Positions 28,681 to 38,197 of a stretch of 64,000 bases of DNA are shown here, piece by piece. The stretch is taken from contig JAJYUA010000010.1 in assembly GCA_021792755.1 (NCBI GenBank), positions 1-64,000 on the forward strand, read 5' to 3'. Source of the stretch: Pseudomonadota bacterium. Lineage in GTDB: Bacteria > Pseudomonadota > Gammaproteobacteria > Steroidobacterales > Steroidobacteraceae. Numbering within the stretch: position 1 is the first letter of the stretch; each line of letters begins with the position of its first letter. A program made the translations under genes and the position numbers. The notes under the pieces were generated by a model, which saw only the letters and a program-made list of their open reading frames with translations, ran no database searches and was not told the origin of the DNA.

Positions 28681-29571
28681 TCAGCTCTCTAGGTGTCGTG
28701 CGCTGAAGTACTGGTAGATCGCGATCGGGCCCACCAGCAGCACGACGAAGGCGATGGCGACGGCGGATGCGACCGGCCAGTCGTGATTGGTGAAGAACTC
28801 ATCCCACAGGACTCGGCCGATCATCAGGTTGCCGGGGCCGCCGAGAAGCGAGGGAATGACGAACTCCCCCACCGCGGGAATGAACACCAGCATCGAGCCG
28901 GCAATGATCCCGGGCAGGGACAGAGGCAGCGTGATGTCGAGAAACGCGCGCCAGGGCGGGCTGCCGAGGTCGGATGCCGCCTCGAGCAGCGCCGGATCGA
29001 GCTTCTGCAGCGTGGCGAACAGCGGCAGCACCATGTAGGGCAGGTAGGAGTAGACGATGCCGATGTAGATCGCCAGATTGGTGTGCATGATCACCAGCGG
29101 GTGCGAGATCAGCCCGAGGCGCAGCAGCAGCATGTTGAGAATACCATCGTTTTGAATGACCGCCTCGAGCGCGTACACCCTCAGCAGGAACGACGTCCAG
29201 AAGGGCAGGATGATGGCGAGGAGCAGCACTTTCTGCGTGGCGCGCGGCGCCCTCGACATCGCATAGGCGATCGGGTAACCGAGCAGAAGACAGGTCAGCG
29301 TAGAGAAGAACGCGGTGCGCAGAGAGAACAGGTAGGCCAGGCCGTAGACCTCTTCCGTGAACAGGCGGCGGAAATTGTTCAGATCGAGCGTGAGATGCAG
29401 GCGGTGGTCCGCCGTACGGGTGAATATGTCGGTGAAGGGGGGGATGCGGATCACCGATTCCGCGAAGCTGATCTTCAGCGTGTAGAAGAACGGTACCAGA
29501 AAGAAGATCAGCAGAAAGAGGAGCGGCGGCAGGATGATCAGCCAGCGCCGCGCATGCCTCGTGCGGTTCAT
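28681..29571 (-). CDS. potH: Polyamine-type ABC transporter permease (PotH-like)
   Basis: This inner-membrane partner of the PotI-like permease has 296 residues and about six TM segments. Typical PotB/PotH blocks are LLLGYPIAYAMSRAP, LLAIILPFWTSFLLRVYAL, and the EAA loop LLEAASDLGSPPWRAFLDITLPLSLPG. It is the first gene of the leftward unit, starting 54 bp from the divergent TetR-Rieske regulator. That regulator is therefore well placed to control transport. Confidence 0.9.
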   Translation of the reverse strand: MNRTRHARRWLIILPPLLFLLIFFLVPFFYTLKISFAESVIRIPPFTDIFTRTADHRLHLTLDLNNFRRLFTEEVYGLAYLFSLRTAFFSTLTCLLLGYPIAYAMSRAPRATQKVLLLAIILPFWTSFLLRVYALEAVIQNDGILNMLLLRLGLISHPLVIMHTNLAIYIGIVYSYLPYMVLPLFATLQKLDPALLEAASDLGSPPWRAFLDITLPLSLPGIIAGSMLVFIPAVGEFVIPSLLGGPGNLMIGRVLWDEFFTNHDWPVASAVAIAFVVLLVGPIAIYQYFSARHLES

Positions 29572-29625
29572 GATGTGTATGCTGAATTTGGCCTCGGAGC
29601 CATTGTGCAGGATAAGATTGCCGCC

Positions 29626-31197
29626 GTGTCAAGCGAACGCCATACCAGCGCCCCCACCCCTTCCGGTGCGTCCGCCCGTGCGCCGCGCATGCGCCAGCGC
29701 CAGCGGCTGATCGATGCATGCATCGCCGCGCTTCACCTGTACGGACCGTCGCGCACTACCGTCGAGAAGGTGGTTGCGATCGCCAACCTCTCCCCGGGCA
29801 TCGTGCGCTTTTATTTCGATTCCAAGGACGCGATGCTGGTCGCCTCGCTCGCCTATCTCGCCGCGGAGTTCGAGGAGCGCGTGCTCGCCCCGGTCGCAAG
29901 GCTGAAGATCACGCCCACCCACGCCCTCGAGCGGCTCGTGGAACTGTATTTCGATCCGCAGATCGCGAGCCCCCGCAAGGTGTCCGTGTGGTACTCGTTC
30001 TGGGGCGAGGCGAGCTCCCGCCAGGAGTACCACGACATCTGCGGCAAGAAGGACGACGAGTTTGCCACGCTCGTGCGCGAGCTGGTCGAAGCGGTGATGG
30101 CCGAGGCGGGCCTGGCGCATCTCGATGCCGATGCGATCTCTCTCGGGCTGATCGGCGTGCTCGAGGTGCTCTGGCAGAGCATCGCGTTTCAGAACGAGGA
30201 GAACATCGACCGCGCTGCCGCCCGCCGCCGCTCGCTCGCGTATCTCGGCTCGGTATTCCCGGGAATGTTCCCGGCGGGCACTCGATCTGGCCCCCCCCCG
30301 CGCGAATCCGCCGTCCCGCCCGGAACGTGTCCGGATGGCCGTTTGCCCGGCTGGGCGTATTCGGACGCCGCCTTCTTCGCGCTCGAGCGCGAGCGGCTGT
30401 TCCGGCCCGCCTGGCAGGTGGTCGGTGTTGCCGAACAGCTCGGTCGGGCCGGAGCGTTCATCACCGCCGCCTGGCCCTGGGAGCGGGTGCTGGTGGTGCG
30501 TGGCGCCACCGGGACGCTGCACGCGCTGCGAAACGCTTGTCGCCGCCAGCCGCACGCCTTGCTCGAGGAGCTTTCCGGCCGGGTTGCGGGCAAACTGCGT
30601 TGCGCAGCTCACGATCTGAGTTACGATCTCGATGGCCGGCTGCTCGCAGGCACGACGCCCGGAGACCTGATGCCGCTTGAGCTGACGAGGCTGGGCCCCC
30701 TGCTCCTGGTGCGCTCGCCGTGTCCAAGCGGGCAGCTGGGCGGCGGCGTTCCCGAGGTCACGCTGGATACCTGGCCGGCTTTGCACGTGGCGCGGATCGA
30801 GACAACGATCGCAGCGGCCGACTGGAAGCTCCTCGTCGAGCAGTGGCTCGAGAGCCCCGATCCCGGCCGGCATTTCCTGCCGCCGAATCAACTGCTCGAC
30901 CTCGCATCCGAGCCGCCGCAGATCCTGCAAGCGCTGCCGGAGGCCGCCGGGCGGACCCGCGTGGTGCGTTTCGAGCTGCGCACGGCGCAACGCGCCCGCC
31001 GACCGGGTCGCGGCACCCGCCCGGCCGGTGTCAACGTGACGGGTGAGATCGCGCTCGCCGAATCGGCCCAGCGCGGGCTCGAGGCATTTCCCGTGCAAGC
31101 ACAGGATGCCGGCCCCCTCACCCCGGAGCTGGCGCGTTTTCGGCACTCGATCGCCATGCTGTTGCCGTTGCTCGGGTCGGATCGGGTCACGAGCTAA
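29626..31197 (+). CDS. BetI-like TetR repressor fused to a degenerate Rieske-oxygenase domain
   Basis: This is a predicted transcription regulator of 523 residues (GTG start at 29626; an ATG at 29689 is the alternative). Residues about 22-70 are a TetR helix-turn-helix (RLIDACIAALHLYG, then VEKVVAIANLSPGIVRFYFDSKD). Residues 80-215 match the BetI ligand domain (YSFWGEASSRQEYHDICGKKD). TetR proteins normally stop here at about 200 residues. In this one the frame continues into a Rieske-oxygenase-like half. A start like the neighbouring enzyme (LPGWAYS, RPAWQVV) is followed by a Rieske cluster region with Cys305, Cys326 and His329, but with Arg307 where the first His ligand should be. A remnant of the catalytic domain (ADWKLLVEQWLES) lacks the Fe-binding His pair. 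It therefore looks like a sensor and not an enzyme. A C9 run at 30291-30299 lies in the linker. The gene ends overlapping the genuine Rieske gene by 4 bp. Confidence 0.8.
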   Translation: MSSERHTSAPTPSGASARAPRMRQRQRLIDACIAALHLYGPSRTTVEKVVAIANLSPGIVRFYFDSKDAMLVASLAYLAAEFEERVLAPVARLKITPTHALERLVELYFDPQIASPRKVSVWYSFWGEASSRQEYHDICGKKDDEFATLVRELVEAVMAEAGLAHLDADAISLGLIGVLEVLWQSIAFQNEENIDRAAARRRSLAYLGSVFPGMFPAGTRSGPPPRESAVPPGTCPDGRLPGWAYSDAAFFALERERLFRPAWQVVGVAEQLGRAGAFITAAWPWERVLVVRGATGTLHALRNACRRQPHALLEELSGRVAGKLRCAAHDLSYDLDGRLLAGTTPGDLMPLELTRLGPLLLVRSPCPSGQLGGGVPEVTLDTWPALHVARIETTIAAADWKLLVEQWLESPDPGRHFLPPNQLLDLASEPPQILQALPEAAGRTRVVRFELRTAQRARRPGRGTRPAGVNVTGEIALAESAQRGLEAFPVQAQDAGPLTPELARFRHSIAMLLPLLGSDRVTS

Positions 31198-32354
31198 GCA
31201 AAACAGGCCGGGGCGGACGGCTCGCGCACCTCCGGGATGCGCTCGCGCAGCAGCTCGTGGAACTGGAACATGCAGCTTTCGAGCCTTGAAAGGGGCCCGG
31301 GCTCGTAGGCGCGCGAGCCGAGGCCGCGCTGCACCCGGGTGCACAGGAACTCGTCTTCGCGCTGCACCTGGCGGTTGATCCGCGCACACAGGTAGCGCAG
31401 GACGCGCATCTCGCGCCGCGAATCCGGGTGCGCGAAGCAGCCGCCGCGGATCGTGCACTTGCCGGGTCCCCGCGGCAGCACCTGGAAGAAATCCATCTGG
31501 TCGGGAAAGATGTCGATGCCGGTGTTCGGCAGCATGCTGTAGAAGCGCCAGCGCCGCCGATGCTCCTCGGGTAGGTCGTCGGCCGTCGGCACGACGAGTT
31601 TCTGATACAGGCGCTCGCTCCAGCGGCTCGAGGGCAGATCGCGCATGTGGCTGACGCCGCGCGCCACGCCGCCCGGCAGCAGCACCTGGTCCTGGTAGTC
31701 GGGTGTGAACATGCGCTGCAGCCCCGGGTGGCCGATCGGCACGTGATAGGACTCCAGGTAGTTGTCCATGGCGACTTTCCAGTCGCAGTCCCAATGCTCG
31801 ATGTAGAGGGGCCCCAATGGCTGCATCGCCTCGATGTGATACGGCTCGAGCTCGACGGCGAGCTCGCCCCACACCGCCTCGATGGGCGGCGGATCGCCGG
31901 CAAGGCATACGAATACGAATCCGAACGCCACCTGCGAGCGCGCGGGCTTCAGCCCCCAGCGCGCGCGGTCCAAACCGGGAAACGTGTCGCGCTCGGGCGT
32001 GCCGATGAGCTCGCCGCCGAGCCGATACGACCAGCCGTGGTAGGGGCAGACGATCGGCCCGGAGCAGTGGCCCGATCCTTCGAGCAGGCGCGCGCCGCGA
32101 TGGCGACACACATTGTGATACGCGCGGATCGCACCTTCCGAATCACGTACCACCACCACGCCGCTTGCGCCGAGCTCAAACGTGGCGAAGTCGCCGCGAC
32201 GGGGGACGGCATTGACGTGACAGACGATCTGCCAGCTCGGCTCGAGGATGCGCTCGAGCTCAAGACGGGTCATCTGCGGATGATTGTAGGTCCAGGCCGG
32301 CAGAGCGCGCGGCGTGCTGGGTGATTCTCTAGTGCAGGCGGCGGGCGCATTCAT
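31194..32354 (-). CDS. Rieske non-heme iron oxygenase, alpha subunit (betaine/choline/carnitine oxygenase-like)
   Basis: This ring-hydroxylating-dioxygenase-family oxygenase has 386 residues. The Rieske [2Fe-2S] ligands are Cys83 and His85 (NVCRHRGARLL) and Cys103 and His106 (CPYHGWSY). The mononuclear iron site is seen as DWKVAMDNYLESYHVPIGHPG, with bridging Asp197 and His204/His209, and an acidic third ligand is likely in FPDQMDFF. In this family quaternary-amine demethylases (GbcA, Stc2) and hydroxylases (CMO, CntA) share this layout. Context favours a methylated amine, but an aromatic substrate cannot be excluded. No reductase partner (GbcB/CntB-like) is in the window. Its start codon overlaps a BetI-like palindrome. 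Confidence 0.85.
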   Translation of the reverse strand: MNAPAACTRESPSTPRALPAWTYNHPQMTRLELERILEPSWQIVCHVNAVPRRGDFATFELGASGVVVVRDSEGAIRAYHNVCRHRGARLLEGSGHCSGPIVCPYHGWSYRLGGELIGTPERDTFPGLDRARWGLKPARSQVAFGFVFVCLAGDPPPIEAVWGELAVELEPYHIEAMQPLGPLYIEHWDCDWKVAMDNYLESYHVPIGHPGLQRMFTPDYQDQVLLPGGVARGVSHMRDLPSSRWSERLYQKLVVPTADDLPEEHRRRWRFYSMLPNTGIDIFPDQMDFFQVLPRGPGKCTIRGGCFAHPDSRREMRVLRYLCARINRQVQREDEFLCTRVQRGLGSRAYEPGPLSRLESCMFQFHELLRERIPEVREPSAPACFA

Positions 32355-32372
32355 TTGAAGCCTCGTTCAAAT
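32353..32372. promoter_or_regulatory. BetI-like palindromic operator (copy 1)
   Basis: ATTTGAA-GCCTCG-TTCAAAT is a perfect inverted repeat with 7-bp arms overlapping the Rieske oxygenase start codon. Its 16-bp core TTGAAGCCTCGTTCAA aligns with the cores at 59529-59544 and 62978-62993 (common pattern YTGnA-nnn-TCGTnCAA). It resembles the BetI-type operator of choline genes. Confidence 0.55.
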
Positions 32373-32422
32373 AAATTATATGAATATATAAGTATATCGC
32401 CGGTAAATTATATGTATATATA
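32373..32422. promoter_or_regulatory. Two 18-bp AT-rich direct repeats in a divergent promoter
   Basis: AAATTATATGAATATATA at 32373-32390 and AAATTATATGTATATATA at 32405-32422 differ at one base. Their starts are 32 bp apart, about three helical turns, so a dimer or tetramer could bind one face. They lie between the Rieske oxygenase and the aminotransferase operon, in very AT-rich DNA that also supplies -10-like sequences. Confidence 0.6.
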
Positions 32423-32477
32423 GACTTTTCATCGGGCCGATGCTACCTTGCGGTCAGCAACGAGCGCGGGAGGGGAT

Positions 32478-33806
32478 ATGTCGCGAGTCCTAGAGAGAAG
32501 CCAGGCGCATTATCGGCAGGCACTGACGCGGCTGCCGCTCGGCGTTGCCTCGAACTTCCGCTTCTGGGGCGAGGATCGCACGATCTACGTGAAGTACGGT
32601 CGCGGCGGGCGCATCGTCGATCTCGACGGCAACGAATACGTCGATTACCGCCTTGGCTACGGGCCGGCGATTCTCGGTTACGCCGACCCGCGCGTCGATG
32701 AGGCCGCTCGGGAAGGGATGCAGGTCGGCGGGGTGTTCGCGCTGTCGACCGAGCGCGAGTACCGCGTGGCGGAGCGGATCGCGAAGATGGTGCCGGCCGC
32801 CGAGCTAGTACGCTTCTCCAACTCGGGCACCGAGGCGGTGATGGCGGCGCTGCGGCTCGCCCGCGCCTACACGGGCAAGAATGATTACATCATCCTCGAG
32901 GGCAGCTATCACGGCCTGTTCGACGCGGTCATGTGGTACACGCCGATGGACAAATGGTCGCAGGTCGGCGACCCGGAGGTCTACCCCTACAGCCAGGGCG
33001 TGCCGCTCAGCACGCGCAGCTTCGCGCACTTCGTGCAGGCCAACGACGCCAACCAGCTTGAGGACGTGCTCAATCGCCATGCCGGCCAAGTCGCCTGCCT
33101 GCTCATCGAGCCGATCATGGGCAACTGCCTCGGCATCGCTGCCGATCCGGCCTACATGCGCGCCGCCCGCGAGCTTTGCGACCGCTACGGGGTGCTGCTG
33201 GTGATCGATGAGGTGAAGACTGGCTTCCGCGTCGCCCGTGGCGGTGCGCAGGAGCTTTATGGCATCCAGGCCGATCTGTGCACGTTCGCCAAGGCGGTCG
33301 CCAACGGCTATCCCATCTCCGTACTGGCCGGACGCGAGGATGTCATGCGCAAGATCGGGCGCGGCGTTGCGCACGGCGGCACCTACACGGCCCACTCCGT
33401 GTCGCTCGCAGCTGCGGAGCGAACGCTGCAGATCCTGGATGAAACCGACGCGCTCGCGCGCATCGCGCGCTACGGCACCTCGTTGCGCGAGGGGATGAGC
33501 GCCATCCTGCGCGCTCGCGGCGTGGCGCACAGTTTCGTCGGGCATCCGTCGATGAGCGGTCTGTACTTCGCGCAGGAGCCCCCGCGCACATACCGGGACT
33601 GGAAGGGGAGCGACTACAGCTTCTATGACGCAGCGGCAAAAGTGCTGCACGACGAGCGCGTCCTGTGCGAACCCGATTCGCGCGAGCCGTGGTTCGTCTG
33701 CGCGGCGCACGACGAGTCCTGCCTCAAGCAGACTTTGAAGGGCTTCGAGATCGCGGTCGACAAGACGCTCTCGGCACAGCGCGGCAGGCAGCAGGCCAAG
33801 GCTTGA
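32478..33806 (+). CDS. Class III PLP aminotransferase (glutamate-1-semialdehyde aminomutase-like)
   Basis: This PLP-dependent enzyme has 442 residues from the ATG at 32478, which has GGGAGGGG upstream. The fold and motifs match HemL/omega-transaminase-type class III enzymes: FSNSGTEAVMAALRLARAYTG, GSYHGLFD, LLVIDEVKTGFRVARGG, and the PLP lysine in TFAKAVANGYPISVLAG. It is too divergent and in the wrong context to be the haem enzyme HemL. It heads an operon with two FAD oxidoreductases, a GcvT-like protein and a PotG-like ATPase, so it probably transaminates an amine or amino acid intermediate of the imported compound. Confidence 0.85.
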   Translation: MSRVLERSQAHYRQALTRLPLGVASNFRFWGEDRTIYVKYGRGGRIVDLDGNEYVDYRLGYGPAILGYADPRVDEAAREGMQVGGVFALSTEREYRVAERIAKMVPAAELVRFSNSGTEAVMAALRLARAYTGKNDYIILEGSYHGLFDAVMWYTPMDKWSQVGDPEVYPYSQGVPLSTRSFAHFVQANDANQLEDVLNRHAGQVACLLIEPIMGNCLGIAADPAYMRAARELCDRYGVLLVIDEVKTGFRVARGGAQELYGIQADLCTFAKAVANGYPISVLAGREDVMRKIGRGVAHGGTYTAHSVSLAAAERTLQILDETDALARIARYGTSLREGMSAILRARGVAHSFVGHPSMSGLYFAQEPPRTYRDWKGSDYSFYDAAAKVLHDERVLCEPDSREPWFVCAAHDESCLKQTLKGFEIAVDKTLSAQRGRQQAKA

Positions 33807-33808
33807 CG

Positions 33809-35431
33809 ATGTCCGAAGCCGCGCCGGTACCGAAGCGGTCGAACGGGCGCGATCGGCCCGAGGCAATCGTGGTGGGCGCGGGTCACAACGGGCTCGTCGC
33901 CGCCTGCTACCTGGCGCGCGCGGGCCTCAGGGTGCTGGTGCTGGAGCGTAATGCCTACGTCGGCGGCGCCGCCGTCAGCCGCCGATTGTTCAGAGGGTTT
34001 ACGTACTCGAACTGCTCCTACGTCTGCAGTCTGCTGCGCACCGAGATTATCCGGGCGCTCGATCTGCCCTCGTACGGATTGCAGATCATTCCGTACGAGG
34101 GCGGATGCACCCTGATGCGCGACGGCGGGCATCTCGCCCTCTACGACAATCACGACGCGCTGCGGCGCGAGATCGGCCGGCATTCGCGCCGGGATGCCGA
34201 GGCCTACGACCGGTTCATGCGCGATATGCTGCGGCACTGCAGGTTCATCAAGCCGCTGCTGCTGCGCGCTCCACCCGACCCTACTACGTTGCGGCCGCGC
34301 GACCTGCGCGAGCTCCTGTATCTCGGCCGGCACTTCTCGGGTCTCGGCGAGGAGCGCATGTACGACACGCTGCGATTCTGGACGATGAGCTGCGCAGATC
34401 TGCTCGATGAGTACTTCGAGAGCGAGATCGTCAAGGCGCACCTCGCCGGCAGCTCGATCATCGGTACCGCGCTCGGTCCGCGCTCGCCCGGAACCGCTTA
34501 CGTCCTGCTGCATCACTACATGGGCAGCATAGATGGCACGGTGGGTGCGTGGGGCTTCGCGCGCGGCGGCATGGGCGCGATCACCCAGGCGCTGGCGAGC
34601 GCGTTGCGCGCGAACGGTGGTGAGATCCGCACCGAAGCGTCCGTGGACCGTATCCTCACCCGCAACGGGCGCGCCACCGGGGTCGTTCTCAGCGGCGGTG
34701 AGGAGTTGCACGCCAAGATCGTGGTTTCCAACCTCGACGTGCGCCGAACTTTCCTCGAGTCAATGGATGCAGCGGATCTGCCGCAGGAATTCCTCGCGCA
34801 GGTGCGGCGCTTCAAGATCCGCGGCTCCTCCGGCAAGCTCAACATCGCCCTCGACGGTCTGCCGCGCTTCCCAGCGATTCCGCCCGGCGCGCCTTGCATC
34901 CGGGGCGACATGCACGTGACCGATACGATCGACATGCTCGAGCGCGCCTACGACGACTGGAAGGAGGGGCGCTGGTCGCGGCGGCCCTATATCGACATGC
35001 TCATTCCGACGCAGATCGATCCGACCATGGCCCCGCCGGGCAAGCACTACATGTCGGTCTTCGTACAGTACTGCCCGTACCACCTTGCCGAGGGCCCGTG
35101 GACCGAGGAGCGCCGCGCGCGCTTCGGGCAGACCGTCATCGACAGCATCGCGCAGCACAGTCCGGGCTTCAGGGATCTCATCCTGCACGCGGAGATCCGC
35201 ACCCCCTGGGAGATCGAGAAGGAAGTCGGCCTGACCGAAGGCAACATCTTCCAGGGCGAGCTCACCTTCGATCAACTGCTGTTCAATCGCCCGATCCCGG
35301 GGTATGCGCAATACCGCTCGCCGATCCGGGGGCTGTACATGTGCGGCTCGAGCACTCACCCCGGCGGCGGGGTGATGGGCGCCCCGGGGGCGAATTCGGC
35401 AGCCGCGATCCTTAGGGACCTGCGCCGGTGA
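33809..35431 (+). CDS. FAD-dependent oxidoreductase, PYROXD2/phytoene-desaturase-like (1)
   Basis: This flavin oxidase/dehydrogenase of unknown substrate has 540 residues. It has an N-terminal Rossmann FAD motif (VVGAGHNGLVAACYLARAGLRVLVLE) and the second FAD contact near the C terminus (GLYMCGSSTHPGGGVMGAPG). The arrangement is that of PYROXD2 and carotenoid-desaturase relatives, which are numerous and mostly uncharacterised in bacteria that degrade amines. It starts two bases after the aminotransferase stop, and its stop overlaps the GTG start of the next paralogue (GTGA), so translation is coupled. Oxidative removal of a methyl or amine group is a reasonable guess. Confidence 0.85.
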   Translation: MSEAAPVPKRSNGRDRPEAIVVGAGHNGLVAACYLARAGLRVLVLERNAYVGGAAVSRRLFRGFTYSNCSYVCSLLRTEIIRALDLPSYGLQIIPYEGGCTLMRDGGHLALYDNHDALRREIGRHSRRDAEAYDRFMRDMLRHCRFIKPLLLRAPPDPTTLRPRDLRELLYLGRHFSGLGEERMYDTLRFWTMSCADLLDEYFESEIVKAHLAGSSIIGTALGPRSPGTAYVLLHHYMGSIDGTVGAWGFARGGMGAITQALASALRANGGEIRTEASVDRILTRNGRATGVVLSGGEELHAKIVVSNLDVRRTFLESMDAADLPQEFLAQVRRFKIRGSSGKLNIALDGLPRFPAIPPGAPCIRGDMHVTDTIDMLERAYDDWKEGRWSRRPYIDMLIPTQIDPTMAPPGKHYMSVFVQYCPYHLAEGPWTEERRARFGQTVIDSIAQHSPGFRDLILHAEIRTPWEIEKEVGLTEGNIFQGELTFDQLLFNRPIPGYAQYRSPIRGLYMCGSSTHPGGGVMGAPGANSAAAILRDLRR

Positions 35432-36990
35432 GCGCCTGCCGTTACGACTGCATCGTCGTCGGAGGCGGCCACAATGGCCTCACCTGCGCGGCGTACCTCG
35501 CCAGGGCGGGGCGCTCCGTGCTCGTTCTCGAGGCGCAGGAGGCCGTCGGCGGAGCGGCGCGCACACGGGAATTCGCCCCGGGGTTCCGGGTGTCCGCGTG
35601 CGCCCATTTGCTGCACCTGATGCCCGGCTGGCTGTCCCGGGAGCTCGATCTCCCGCGTCACGGGCTGCGCATGGCCGCGGAGCGCATGCCGACCTTCGCA
35701 CTTTCCGCCGCGGCAGGGGTGTTGCGGATCGATCCGCGCACGCACGGCGCACCGGCCGGTCTGAGCGGCGTCGATGCGCGTGCCTATCCGCGGTACGCAG
35801 CGCGCATGAACCGGCTGGCCGCGGCACTATCTGCGCTGCTCGAAGCAGTGCCGCCGCGCCTCGGCACCGGCGCTTGGCGAGATCGGCTCACGCTGTTGCG
35901 ACTGGGAGCGCGGCTGCGCTTCATCGGACGGCGCGATCTGCGCGAGGCGCTGCGTATCGGTGGCATGTGTGTGCAGGACCTCCTCGATGAGCACTTCGAG
36001 AGCCCCCTGCTCAAGGGCGCACTCGCCTTCGATGCAGTCCTCGGCACGAACTACGGGCCGCGCTCGCCGGGAACGGTGTTCACTCTTTTGTATCGCATGG
36101 CGGCCGGCACGGCGTCGGCCCATGCCGTCGCGCAACCTGCCGGCGGGCTCGGGGCGCTGTGCGAGGCGCTCGCCGCCGCGGCGCGCAGCGCCGGCGCGAC
36201 GATCCGCACCGGGGTGCCCGTGGCGAGCATCGTGCTGCGGGACGACCGCGCCGCCGGTGTGCGTCTGGAGACGGGAGAGGAGTTCGAGGCCGGGTGCATC
36301 ATCTCCAACGCGGATCCCGCCACGACCTTCCTCGATCTGCTCGGGGCCGAGCATCTCGACACCGGTTTCGTGCGCCGCGTGGCTCACCTGCGTACCCGGG
36401 GCATGACCGCAAAACTCCACCTGGCGCTCGAGCGCCCCCCGCGCTTCGCGGGCCTCGAGGACGCCTCGCCCGGACGCATCGTGCTGGCGCCGTCTCCCGA
36501 GTCGATCGAGTGTGCGTTCAATCACGCCAAGTACGGCGAATTCTCCACCCTTCCGGCGCTCGAGGTCCTGGTTCCGTCCGCTGCCGATCCGACGCTCGCG
36601 CCTCACGGCAAGCACGTGCTGTCGGCGGTGGTGCAGTACGCGCCGTATCGCCTGGCCGCGGGATGGACGGAGCATCGGCATCAATTCCTGGATGCGATCC
36701 TGGCGCTGCTCGAGGCACATGCGCCGGGACTGCGCGACTCGGTGTGCGCCGCGGAGTTGCTCACCCCGCAGGACATCGAAACGCAGTTTCGCATCCGCGG
36801 CGGGCACTGGCATCACGCCGAGCTCGCCCTGGATCAATTCTTCATGGTGCGTCCGGTGCCGGGCGCCGCCCAGTACCGCGCGCCCGTGCACGGCCTTTAT
36901 CTGTGCGGCGCCGGATGTCACCCGGGCGGGGGAGTCATGGGGGTCGCCGGGCGCAATGCGGCGCGCGAGGTCCTGAGAGAGGCGGCCTGA
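35428..36990 (+). CDS. FAD-dependent oxidoreductase, PYROXD2/phytoene-desaturase-like (2)
   Basis: This is a paralogue of the preceding gene, 520 residues, starting at a GTG that overlaps its stop. FAD motifs are VVGGGHNGLTCAAYLARAGRSVLVLE at the N terminus and GLYLCGAGCHPGGGVMGVAG at the C terminus. It shares the central block (RSPGT, a Gly-rich substrate loop, HGKHVLS) with the other two copies in this window. The two adjacent paralogues may form a heteromer or act on consecutive intermediates. The substrate is unknown. Confidence 0.85.
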   Translation: MSACRYDCIVVGGGHNGLTCAAYLARAGRSVLVLEAQEAVGGAARTREFAPGFRVSACAHLLHLMPGWLSRELDLPRHGLRMAAERMPTFALSAAAGVLRIDPRTHGAPAGLSGVDARAYPRYAARMNRLAAALSALLEAVPPRLGTGAWRDRLTLLRLGARLRFIGRRDLREALRIGGMCVQDLLDEHFESPLLKGALAFDAVLGTNYGPRSPGTVFTLLYRMAAGTASAHAVAQPAGGLGALCEALAAAARSAGATIRTGVPVASIVLRDDRAAGVRLETGEEFEAGCIISNADPATTFLDLLGAEHLDTGFVRRVAHLRTRGMTAKLHLALERPPRFAGLEDASPGRIVLAPSPESIECAFNHAKYGEFSTLPALEVLVPSAADPTLAPHGKHVLSAVVQYAPYRLAAGWTEHRHQFLDAILALLEAHAPGLRDSVCAAELLTPQDIETQFRIRGGHWHHAELALDQFFMVRPVPGAAQYRAPVHGLYLCGAGCHPGGGVMGVAGRNAAREVLREAA

Positions 36991-36991
36991 G

Positions 36992-38197
36992 ATGCTCACC
37001 GAAACCGAGCCGCACTACCGCCAGCCGCTGCTGCGCACGCGGTTTCACGAGCGGATGCGCGCCTACAGCCAGGTCGACTCCTTCATCCCGTGGTCCGGGT
37101 ACAGCACGGTCGACGTGTTCACCAGCGTCGAGCAGGAGTACTTCGCCATACGCAACAGCGCCTCGCTCTACGACCTGACCCCAATGGTGAAGTACCGCGT
37201 CGCAGGTCCGCAGGCCACGCGCTACCTCGATCGGCTGCTGACGCGATCCGTCGCGAAGCTCTCCCCCGGCAAGGTGGCCTACGCCATCTGGTGCGACGAT
37301 CGCGGCCAGCTGATCGATGACGGTACGGTGTTTCGCATCGCGGAGTCGGAATACCGGCTGTGCACCGCCGAACGCCAGCTCGACTGGTTGCTTGACTCGA
37401 GCATCGGCTTCGATGTCGAGATCACCGAGGTGACAGCCGACATCGCCGCGCTGGCGCTTCAAGGCCCATGCTCATGCTCGGTGCTGCGGGCGATGGGACT
37501 TCAGGGCGTCGAGGTGCTTGCGCCCTTCGAATTCAAGCACTTCGTCTTCGGAGCGGGAACCGCGGCTCTCGTCTCGCGCACCGGCTTCACCGGCGACCTC
37601 GGCTATGAGCTGTGGGTTGATCCGTCCGAGGCTGAGCGGCTCTGGGACGGGCTGATGGACGCCGGACGCGTCCGCACGATCCGGCCCGTGGGATCACGCG
37701 CGCTCAACATCGCGCGGCTCGAGGCCGGCTTCCTGATGCCCAATGTCGATTTCGTCTCGAGCGCCCACACCCTGCGCAACGGTACGGCGCGCTCGGCCCT
37801 GGAGTTCGGCCTCGGCTGGCTCGTCGACTTCGGCAAGGGCCATTTCACGGGCCGGCGGGCGCTACTCGAGGAGAGCCGGCGCAAGCCGCTCCGGCGCTTG
37901 GCGGGCCTCGATGTGGCCGGGACCAAGCCGGCCCACAACGCGCTGCTGTACTCGGACCGCGCAGGGCGCAGGCAGATCGGCAGCGTGACGTCGGCGGCCT
38001 GGTCGCCGACCTGCAAGCGCAACCTCGCGCTGGCGATGCTCGACGCGCCGCACTTCGATATGGGGCGGCAGGTGTGGGCGGAGATCTATGTGAACCGTGA
38101 GCTGGTATGGCAGCGGCGCATGGTGCCCGCCCGGGTGGTCGAGCGGCCGTTCTTCGCGCCCGCGCGCCGACGCGCCACGCCAGCGGGGGACTTTTGA
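36992..38197 (+). CDS. GcvT-like aminomethyltransferase (folate-binding T-protein family)
   Basis: This tetrahydrofolate-dependent protein has 401 residues and resembles glycine-cleavage T-protein and the C-terminal halves of dimethylglycine/sarcosine dehydrogenases. Visible blocks are YDLTPMVKYRVAGPQATRYLDRLLT, then ALQGPCSCSVLRAMG, SRTGFTGDLGYELWV, and the C-terminal GSVTSAAWSPTCKRNLALAML. It starts one base after the FAD oxidoreductase stop. The stand-alone form beside two oxidoreductases suggests it captures one-carbon units (formaldehyde level) from their reaction as methylene-THF. This would mirror the fused architecture seen elsewhere in the window. Confidence 0.85.
   Translation: MLTETEPHYRQPLLRTRFHERMRAYSQVDSFIPWSGYSTVDVFTSVEQEYFAIRNSASLYDLTPMVKYRVAGPQATRYLDRLLTRSVAKLSPGKVAYAIWCDDRGQLIDDGTVFRIAESEYRLCTAERQLDWLLDSSIGFDVEITEVTADIAALALQGPCSCSVLRAMGLQGVEVLAPFEFKHFVFGAGTAALVSRTGFTGDLGYELWVDPSEAERLWDGLMDAGRVRTIRPVGSRALNIARLEAGFLMPNVDFVSSAHTLRNGTARSALEFGLGWLVDFGKGHFTGRRALLEESRRKPLRRLAGLDVAGTKPAHNALLYSDRAGRRQIGSVTSAAWSPTCKRNLALAMLDAPHFDMGRQVWAEIYVNRELVWQRRMVPARVVERPFFAPARRRATPAGDF

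Follow-up and report, generated by a model that had tools for sequence, protein, structure and literature searches.

The window, which is the whole 64,000-nucleotide stretch of DNA analysed, contains a gene cluster in which one open reading frame encodes a TetR-type regulator fused to a Rieske-oxygenase-like domain (Table 1). The fusion gene converges with an intact GbcA/CntA-type Rieske oxygenase gene, and the overlap of 4 bp between the two genes in the preliminary description of this DNA is correct. The neighbouring oxygenase possesses both the C-x-H..C-x2-H motifs and NYLESYHVPIGH. The reading frame of the aminotransferase gene opens at 32448, with an ATG at 32478. The synteny is kept in the relatives and consists of divergent PotB/PotC-type permeases, the fusion, the convergent Rieske oxygenase, the divergent class III aminotransferase and two FAD oxidoreductases. 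The latter are tandem CrtO/phytoene-desaturase-like flavoproteins in an amine-catabolic cluster and are also kept across relatives. At six loci (L033, L034, L035, L038, L039 and L041), the fusion is separated from the main oxygenase by two inserted genes, for a second aldehyde dehydrogenase and for a second, very different oxygenase-like protein; in the latter, no N..E.YH..H, the usual pattern of the iron site, was detected.

Table 1. Features of the fusion gene and its surroundings, with positions in the window
Feature	Position	Strand	Basis or remark
PotB/PotC-type ABC permease, divergent from fusion	28681..29571	-	Syntenic in most fusion loci
TetR-pseudo-Rieske-oxygenase fusion gene	29626..31197	+	523 aa, GTG start, TAA stop
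TetR_N helix-turn-helix, residues 28-73	29707..29844	+	PF00440, 25.9 bits, cut-off 24
TetR_C_6, BetI-type dimerisation and ligand domain, residues 97-210	29914..30255	+	PF13977, 49 bits, cut-off 27
Disordered, fast-evolving linker with C9 run, residues 215-239	30268..30342	+	dN/dS 0.3-1.1, pLDDT <50
Rieske-like domain, residues 240-350	30343..30675	+	PF00355, 30.4 bits, cut-off 20.3
C305-x4-H310 motif (CRRQPH)	30538..30555	+	His at C+5 instead of canonical C+2
C326-x2-H329 motif	30601..30612	+	C326 in 45/46 and H329 in 46/46 dead fusions
Oxygenase catalytic-domain remnant without iron ligands, residues 351-515	30676..31170	+	hhalign against neighbouring enzyme; CntA superposition
Junction where active-site segment (~65 residues) drops out	30853..30873	+	Profile-alignment gap
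Intact GbcA/CntA-type Rieske oxygenase, convergent	31194..32354	-	Pfam Ring_hydroxyl_A and Rieske
Predicted operator 1, TTATATGAATATATAA	32376..32391	.	Palindrome search
Predicted operator 2, TTATATGTATATATAG	32408..32423	.	32 bp from operator 1
Class III aminotransferase, divergent from oxygenase	32478..33806	+	Pfam Aminotran_3
Two FAD amine-oxidase/CrtO-like oxidoreductases	33665..36990	+	Domain searches
GcvT-like aminomethyltransferase	36992..38197	+	Best NCBIfam match is the C-terminal part of TMAO demethylase

The single open frame indeed joins a BetI-type TetR protein to a Rieske domain, and all three Pfam domains score above their cut-offs; the Pfam match to Rieske covers residues 263-345. 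With TetR_N and TetR_C_6 above the curated cut-offs, the protein belongs to the TetR family and to the subgroup with a BetI-type C-terminal domain. BetI is a choline-responsive TetR repressor. Against the BetI equivalog model TIGR03384, the fusion scores 72.3 bits where the cut-off is 201.3, and it is therefore a BetI-type TetR protein rather than BetI itself. Similar to BetI, it consists in part of TetR_N and TetR_C_6 and sits among genes for quaternary amines. Different from BetI, it carries an extra domain of 300 residues, and its operators and regulon also differ. The AlphaFold2 model of the fusion has a mean pLDDT of 79.9, with most of the fused domain at ~90. The TetR half of the model matches 3e7q (Z 19) and, among others, 4kwa (Z 18), the structure of a TetR protein with choline.

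The fused domain was thought to resemble the first two thirds of the neighbouring enzyme, but it corresponds to the whole alpha subunit minus ~65 residues. Profile-profile alignment with hhalign pairs 280 of 289 residues with the neighbouring enzyme (E 3e-38) and reaches both C-terminal ends, and its sole gap, of ~65 residues, is the site of both iron His. The pair of iron-site His is thus absent, as claimed before, because both lie within the deleted segment. The comparison of a predicted structure with CntA, which had been suggested as a check, gave a superposition of model residues 235-514 on CntA residues 13-371 over 272 residues with a Z of 25.4 and an rmsd of 2.8. The top fold matches are quaternary-ammonium oxygenases, i.e., CntA, stachydrine demethylase and the demethylase 3vca; the fold shared with the CntA/GbcA/stachydrine demethylase type spans 272-279 residues (Z 24-25). 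By profile alignment and superposition, the domain has the fold of a Rieske oxygenase alpha subunit and descends from one. Its identity to the partner oxygenase is ~25%, and no match to Ring_hydroxyl_A was found in the fusion protein with Pfam. While its fold is like those of CntA, GbcA and stachydrine demethylase, the domain has lost the canonical [2Fe-2S] His, both iron His and the conserved Asp, is shorter by ~65 residues and is joined to a DNA-binding protein. The 2-His-1-carboxylate iron site of an active enzyme is missing, given that both His are deleted and the Asp position is variable.

In CntA, the cluster ligands are Cys86, His88, Cys106 and His109, and the iron ligands are His208, His213 and Asp323 (PMC7948474). 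The protein encoded in the window keeps C305, C326 and H329 and has R307 in place of the first His, just as first noted, and thereby lacks the C-x-H ... C-x2-H cluster ligands of an active enzyme. An invariant His310 at C+5, together with Pro309, had been overlooked. Ligands were counted in 46 distinct dead fusions, 45 of which keep the C305/H310 region, and C305, P309, H310 and L312 are present in all 45 (see Table 1 for C326 and H329). The C+2 position is occupied by R, H, Q, V, E, A, K or I; it is His in 7/45, and the canonical Rieske ligand set is lost in the other 38/45. The residue aligned to the iron Asp varies as well (E, Q, D, A, T, S and others). The true oxygenases of the same loci invariably carry C-x-H and C-x2-H, and their C+5 residue is A, S or T. 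In the lineage of L032 (L032:4929-6308), the Rieske-like N-terminal half with C305/H310 is lost and the frame is open to the end. These counts indicate that most members no longer have the canonical Rieske and iron sites, whereas a shifted set of two Cys and two His is kept and is invariant in 45/46 sequences. The Rieske-like part with C305/H310/C326/H329 is probably metal-binding.

Counting the full-length architecture in databases had also been suggested as a check. In a table of matches from 396 genomes of the order, a single-frame fusion was counted in ~45 uncultured relatives, which share 38-88% identity with the window's protein and fall in several genera of one family. A metagenome-derived relative whose protein is 88% identical has the same architecture, and its junction is read in frame without the C9 run; the few exceptions among the fusion loci have premature stops or splits (e.g., L035). 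As the genome of the window is a draft of 57 contigs and the linker contains the C9 run, an error at this run might have joined two genes in assembly or annotation. This artefact is ruled out by the same single frame in ~45 independently assembled genomes, some of them without the C run, and has next to no chance of being the explanation. No relative was found in a search of viral contigs, and in a phylum-wide sample of genomes the oxygenases were all separate, with no fusion found.

Pairwise dN/dS varied among the parts of the protein, ranging from ~0.04 to 0.18 for the TetR part, from ~0.11 to 0.48 and mostly between 0.1 and 0.3 for the Rieske-like part, and from 0.25 to 0.70 for the rest, i.e., the catalytic remnant. 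Codon bootstraps of five pairs gave dN/dS intervals below 1. The fused domain is under purifying selection, and its Rieske-like part is more constrained than the catalytic remnant. The preliminary description of a BetI-type regulator joined to a Rieske oxygenase that is dead is upheld, and dN/dS well below 1 indicates that this fusion is kept by selection.

A palindrome, TTATATGnnCATATAA, is found, usually twice, in the divergent oxygenase/aminotransferase intergenic region, and 25/27 retrieved regions of this kind contain at least one site with no more than three mismatches. Within the window, the only matches are the two predicted operators, where 0.08 are expected. Among 48 loci, 48/50 sites are in the oxygenase/aminotransferase promoter, compared with 1.95 expected by shuffling. 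Two promoters, at 32353-32422 and 29572-29625, had been put forward as binding regions of the fusion protein: the predicted operator sites were found in the former, while the search of the window found no TTATATGnnCATATAA site in the latter, the fusion's own promoter. Between the permease and fusion genes (29572-29625), the window and its relatives have a conserved stretch, CTATTGTGCGnGATAAACTT, which is probably a promoter and differs from the palindrome.

A genome-wide search of the window's genome with no more than two mismatches found only four sites, as two pairs. The second pair has a spacing of 31 bp and is found ~44 kb from the pair in the window (L125:8193-15142, on contig C8 of the same genome, ~12 kb past the window end), between the genes for an OYE-family flavoprotein and an MttB-like methyltransferase. 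Beside it are genes for a carnitine 3-dehydrogenase homologue (529 bits; cut-off 592)/thioesterase and an NCS1 permease. Based on sequence, this second pair is likely a target of the fused repressor. In other genomes, extra sites are upstream of the OYE/MttB pair (L153, L154 and L157) or of TonB receptors (L149, L151, L152 and L155). The operator pairs are 31-32 bp apart in the window's genus, and genomes with TetR only keep 31-bp pairs. We infer the pairing of the fused regulator with TTATATGnnCATATAA from their co-occurrence and assign the sites to it since we recognise no other regulator that these loci share.

A TetR protein joined to a Rieske oxygenase that is apparently intact, 596-631 aa in total length, is encoded in six genomes of the order (L079-L084) and in three genomes of other gammaproteobacterial families (L099-L101). 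All nine contain C-x-H, C-x2-H, both iron His and the Asp. They span at least five gammaproteobacterial families and are possible bifunctional repressor-enzymes. In L099 and L100, a second Rieske oxygenase adjoins the intact fusion, with the iron-site motif DNYIDALHVRxAH and not the usual ExYH form. The promoters of the intact fusions themselves hold a different palindrome pair, TnAAyGnnCrTTnA, with a spacing of 20 bp, which suggests autoregulation.

In the oxygenase tree, seven intact fusions group with the dead domains (92/94) and apart from the neighbouring oxygenases, and in the TetR tree intact and dead fusions also group (83/83); support for both groupings is moderate and the branches are long. 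The His at C+5 is common to the seven intact fusions and the dead fusions and is found neither in L101 nor in the neighbouring enzymes; the L101 fusion may be a separate event. A tree that unites the dead domain with the neighbouring oxygenase is rejected by the AU test (p = 0.0047). Recruitment of a dead domain from the neighbouring enzyme, as proposed earlier, is thus not sustained, and the oxygenase tree and the AU test rule out that the regulator acquired its domain by a recent duplication of the neighbouring oxygenase. As the dead domain is placed apart from the neighbour and beside intact fusions of 614-631 residues, its nearest relatives, the likely order is a live fusion first and death later. 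Within the TetR tree, the unfused L016-L020 and the shortened L097 and L098 branch from among the dead fusions, a placement that suggests repeated loss of the domain: it was lost at least three times, while the operators and TetR were retained. The proteins are of graded size, with 614-631 aa (intact), 540-580, ~520, 459, 276-316 and 222-237 aa (TetR only), and can be ordered, through intermediates and deletions to complete losses, as a series of erosion. With moderate confidence, we attribute these proteins to a single old fusion to a live oxygenase, followed by death and erosion.

Our best reading, which we consider probable on balance, is that the fusion protein is a quaternary-ammonium repressor whose TetR half reads the ligand and whose once-live oxygenase is now a relic kept for its Rieske-like part. 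As a TetR/BetI-type repressor, it would control a regulon for catabolism of carnitine/betaine-type quaternary-ammonium compounds. Judging from the operator sites, its TetR half would bind the twin TTATATGnnCATATAA in the divergent oxygenase/aminotransferase promoter and would also bind at the OYE/MttB and TonB-receptor genes; DNA would most likely be released when a quaternary amine enters the BetI-type pocket. The C-terminal domain would descend, with moderate support from the trees, from an oxygenase already fused to TetR while its catalytic residues were intact; the active site would then have been lost and, in some lineages, the complete domain. Selection would keep mainly the Rieske-like fold with its rewired C305/H310/C326/H329 set, which would bind a metal or an Fe-S cluster and tune the repressor to the iron or redox state or, alternatively, would stabilise the repressor assembly. 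We entertain only tentatively the further suggestion that the intact relatives of 614-631 residues are working repressor-oxygenases, bound at their own promoters and sensing by turnover, of which the window type would be a dead, iron/redox-reporting descendant.

The strongest rival to this reading is that the TetR half alone works and the oxygenase domain is a vestigial passenger, i.e., a tolerated and slowly eroding tail. The graded size series, the unfused forms nested among dead fusions, the repeated domain losses and the unchanged operators of TetR-only genomes are all in line with it, and an active-site remnant that evolves fast, with dN/dS up to 0.7, is consistent with erosion. However, a mere passenger is hard to reconcile with a Rieske-like part whose dN/dS is mostly 0.1-0.3 with bootstrap intervals below 1, with C305, P309, H310, L312, C326 and H329 invariant in ~45 genomes of several genera, or with a reading frame retained almost everywhere, and we regard it as possible but doubtful.

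Two other roles for the domain were considered. According to the preliminary description, the regulator measures the substrate of the enzyme, with the dead oxygenase pocket binding it and controlling the TetR half. Although the best fold matches are to quaternary-ammonium oxygenases and the regulon acts on compounds of this kind, this idea is weak because the deletion removes the iron site and much of the lining of the substrate pocket. Furthermore, residues near the third ligand are variable and the TetR_C_6 half, which has a BetI-type pocket already, is more likely to sense the ligand. A substrate sensor of this kind is very unlikely. The domain might instead trimerise like an oxygenase alpha subunit or join the true oxygenase, and so bridge the paired operators or let the enzyme level feed back on transcription. 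CntA is an alpha3 trimer (PMC7948474) and the window's genus has paired operators 31-32 bp apart, but the same 31-bp pairs are found in TetR-only genomes and the domain is only ~25% identical to its partner enzyme, which makes such an assembly module unlikely.

No described TetR-Rieske fusion was found in the open-access literature, a scope outside which most subscription journals fall. The nearest precedent is BzdR, which consists of a helix-turn-helix domain and an inactive shikimate-kinase-like effector domain and for which an intermediate with a live enzyme was built synthetically (PMC3602430). Both BzdR and the fusion join a DNA-binding domain to a catalytically dead enzyme homologue in a catabolic regulator, but their DNA-binding and enzyme families differ, and the fusion has natural counterparts in which the joined enzyme is apparently live. 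In tetralin degradation, the Rieske-type electron-transfer proteins ThnA3/ThnY help to regulate the catabolic pathway (PMC3771892). Different from the fusion, they are separate proteins that work with a LysR-type activator, and neither TetR nor an oxygenase fusion is involved.

That an enzyme can become the sensing part of a regulator is an old idea, of which the live-enzyme intermediate has so far mostly been reconstructed (BzdR, PMC3602430). Here, the natural stages apparently coexist: TetR beside an oxygenase gene, an intact fusion, a dead fusion and loss of the domain. The analysis also provides a Rieske fold with a new candidate set of metal ligands that is open to testing and, for a large uncultured group of gammaproteobacteria, a predicted operator and regulon for the breakdown of carnitine/betaine-type amines.
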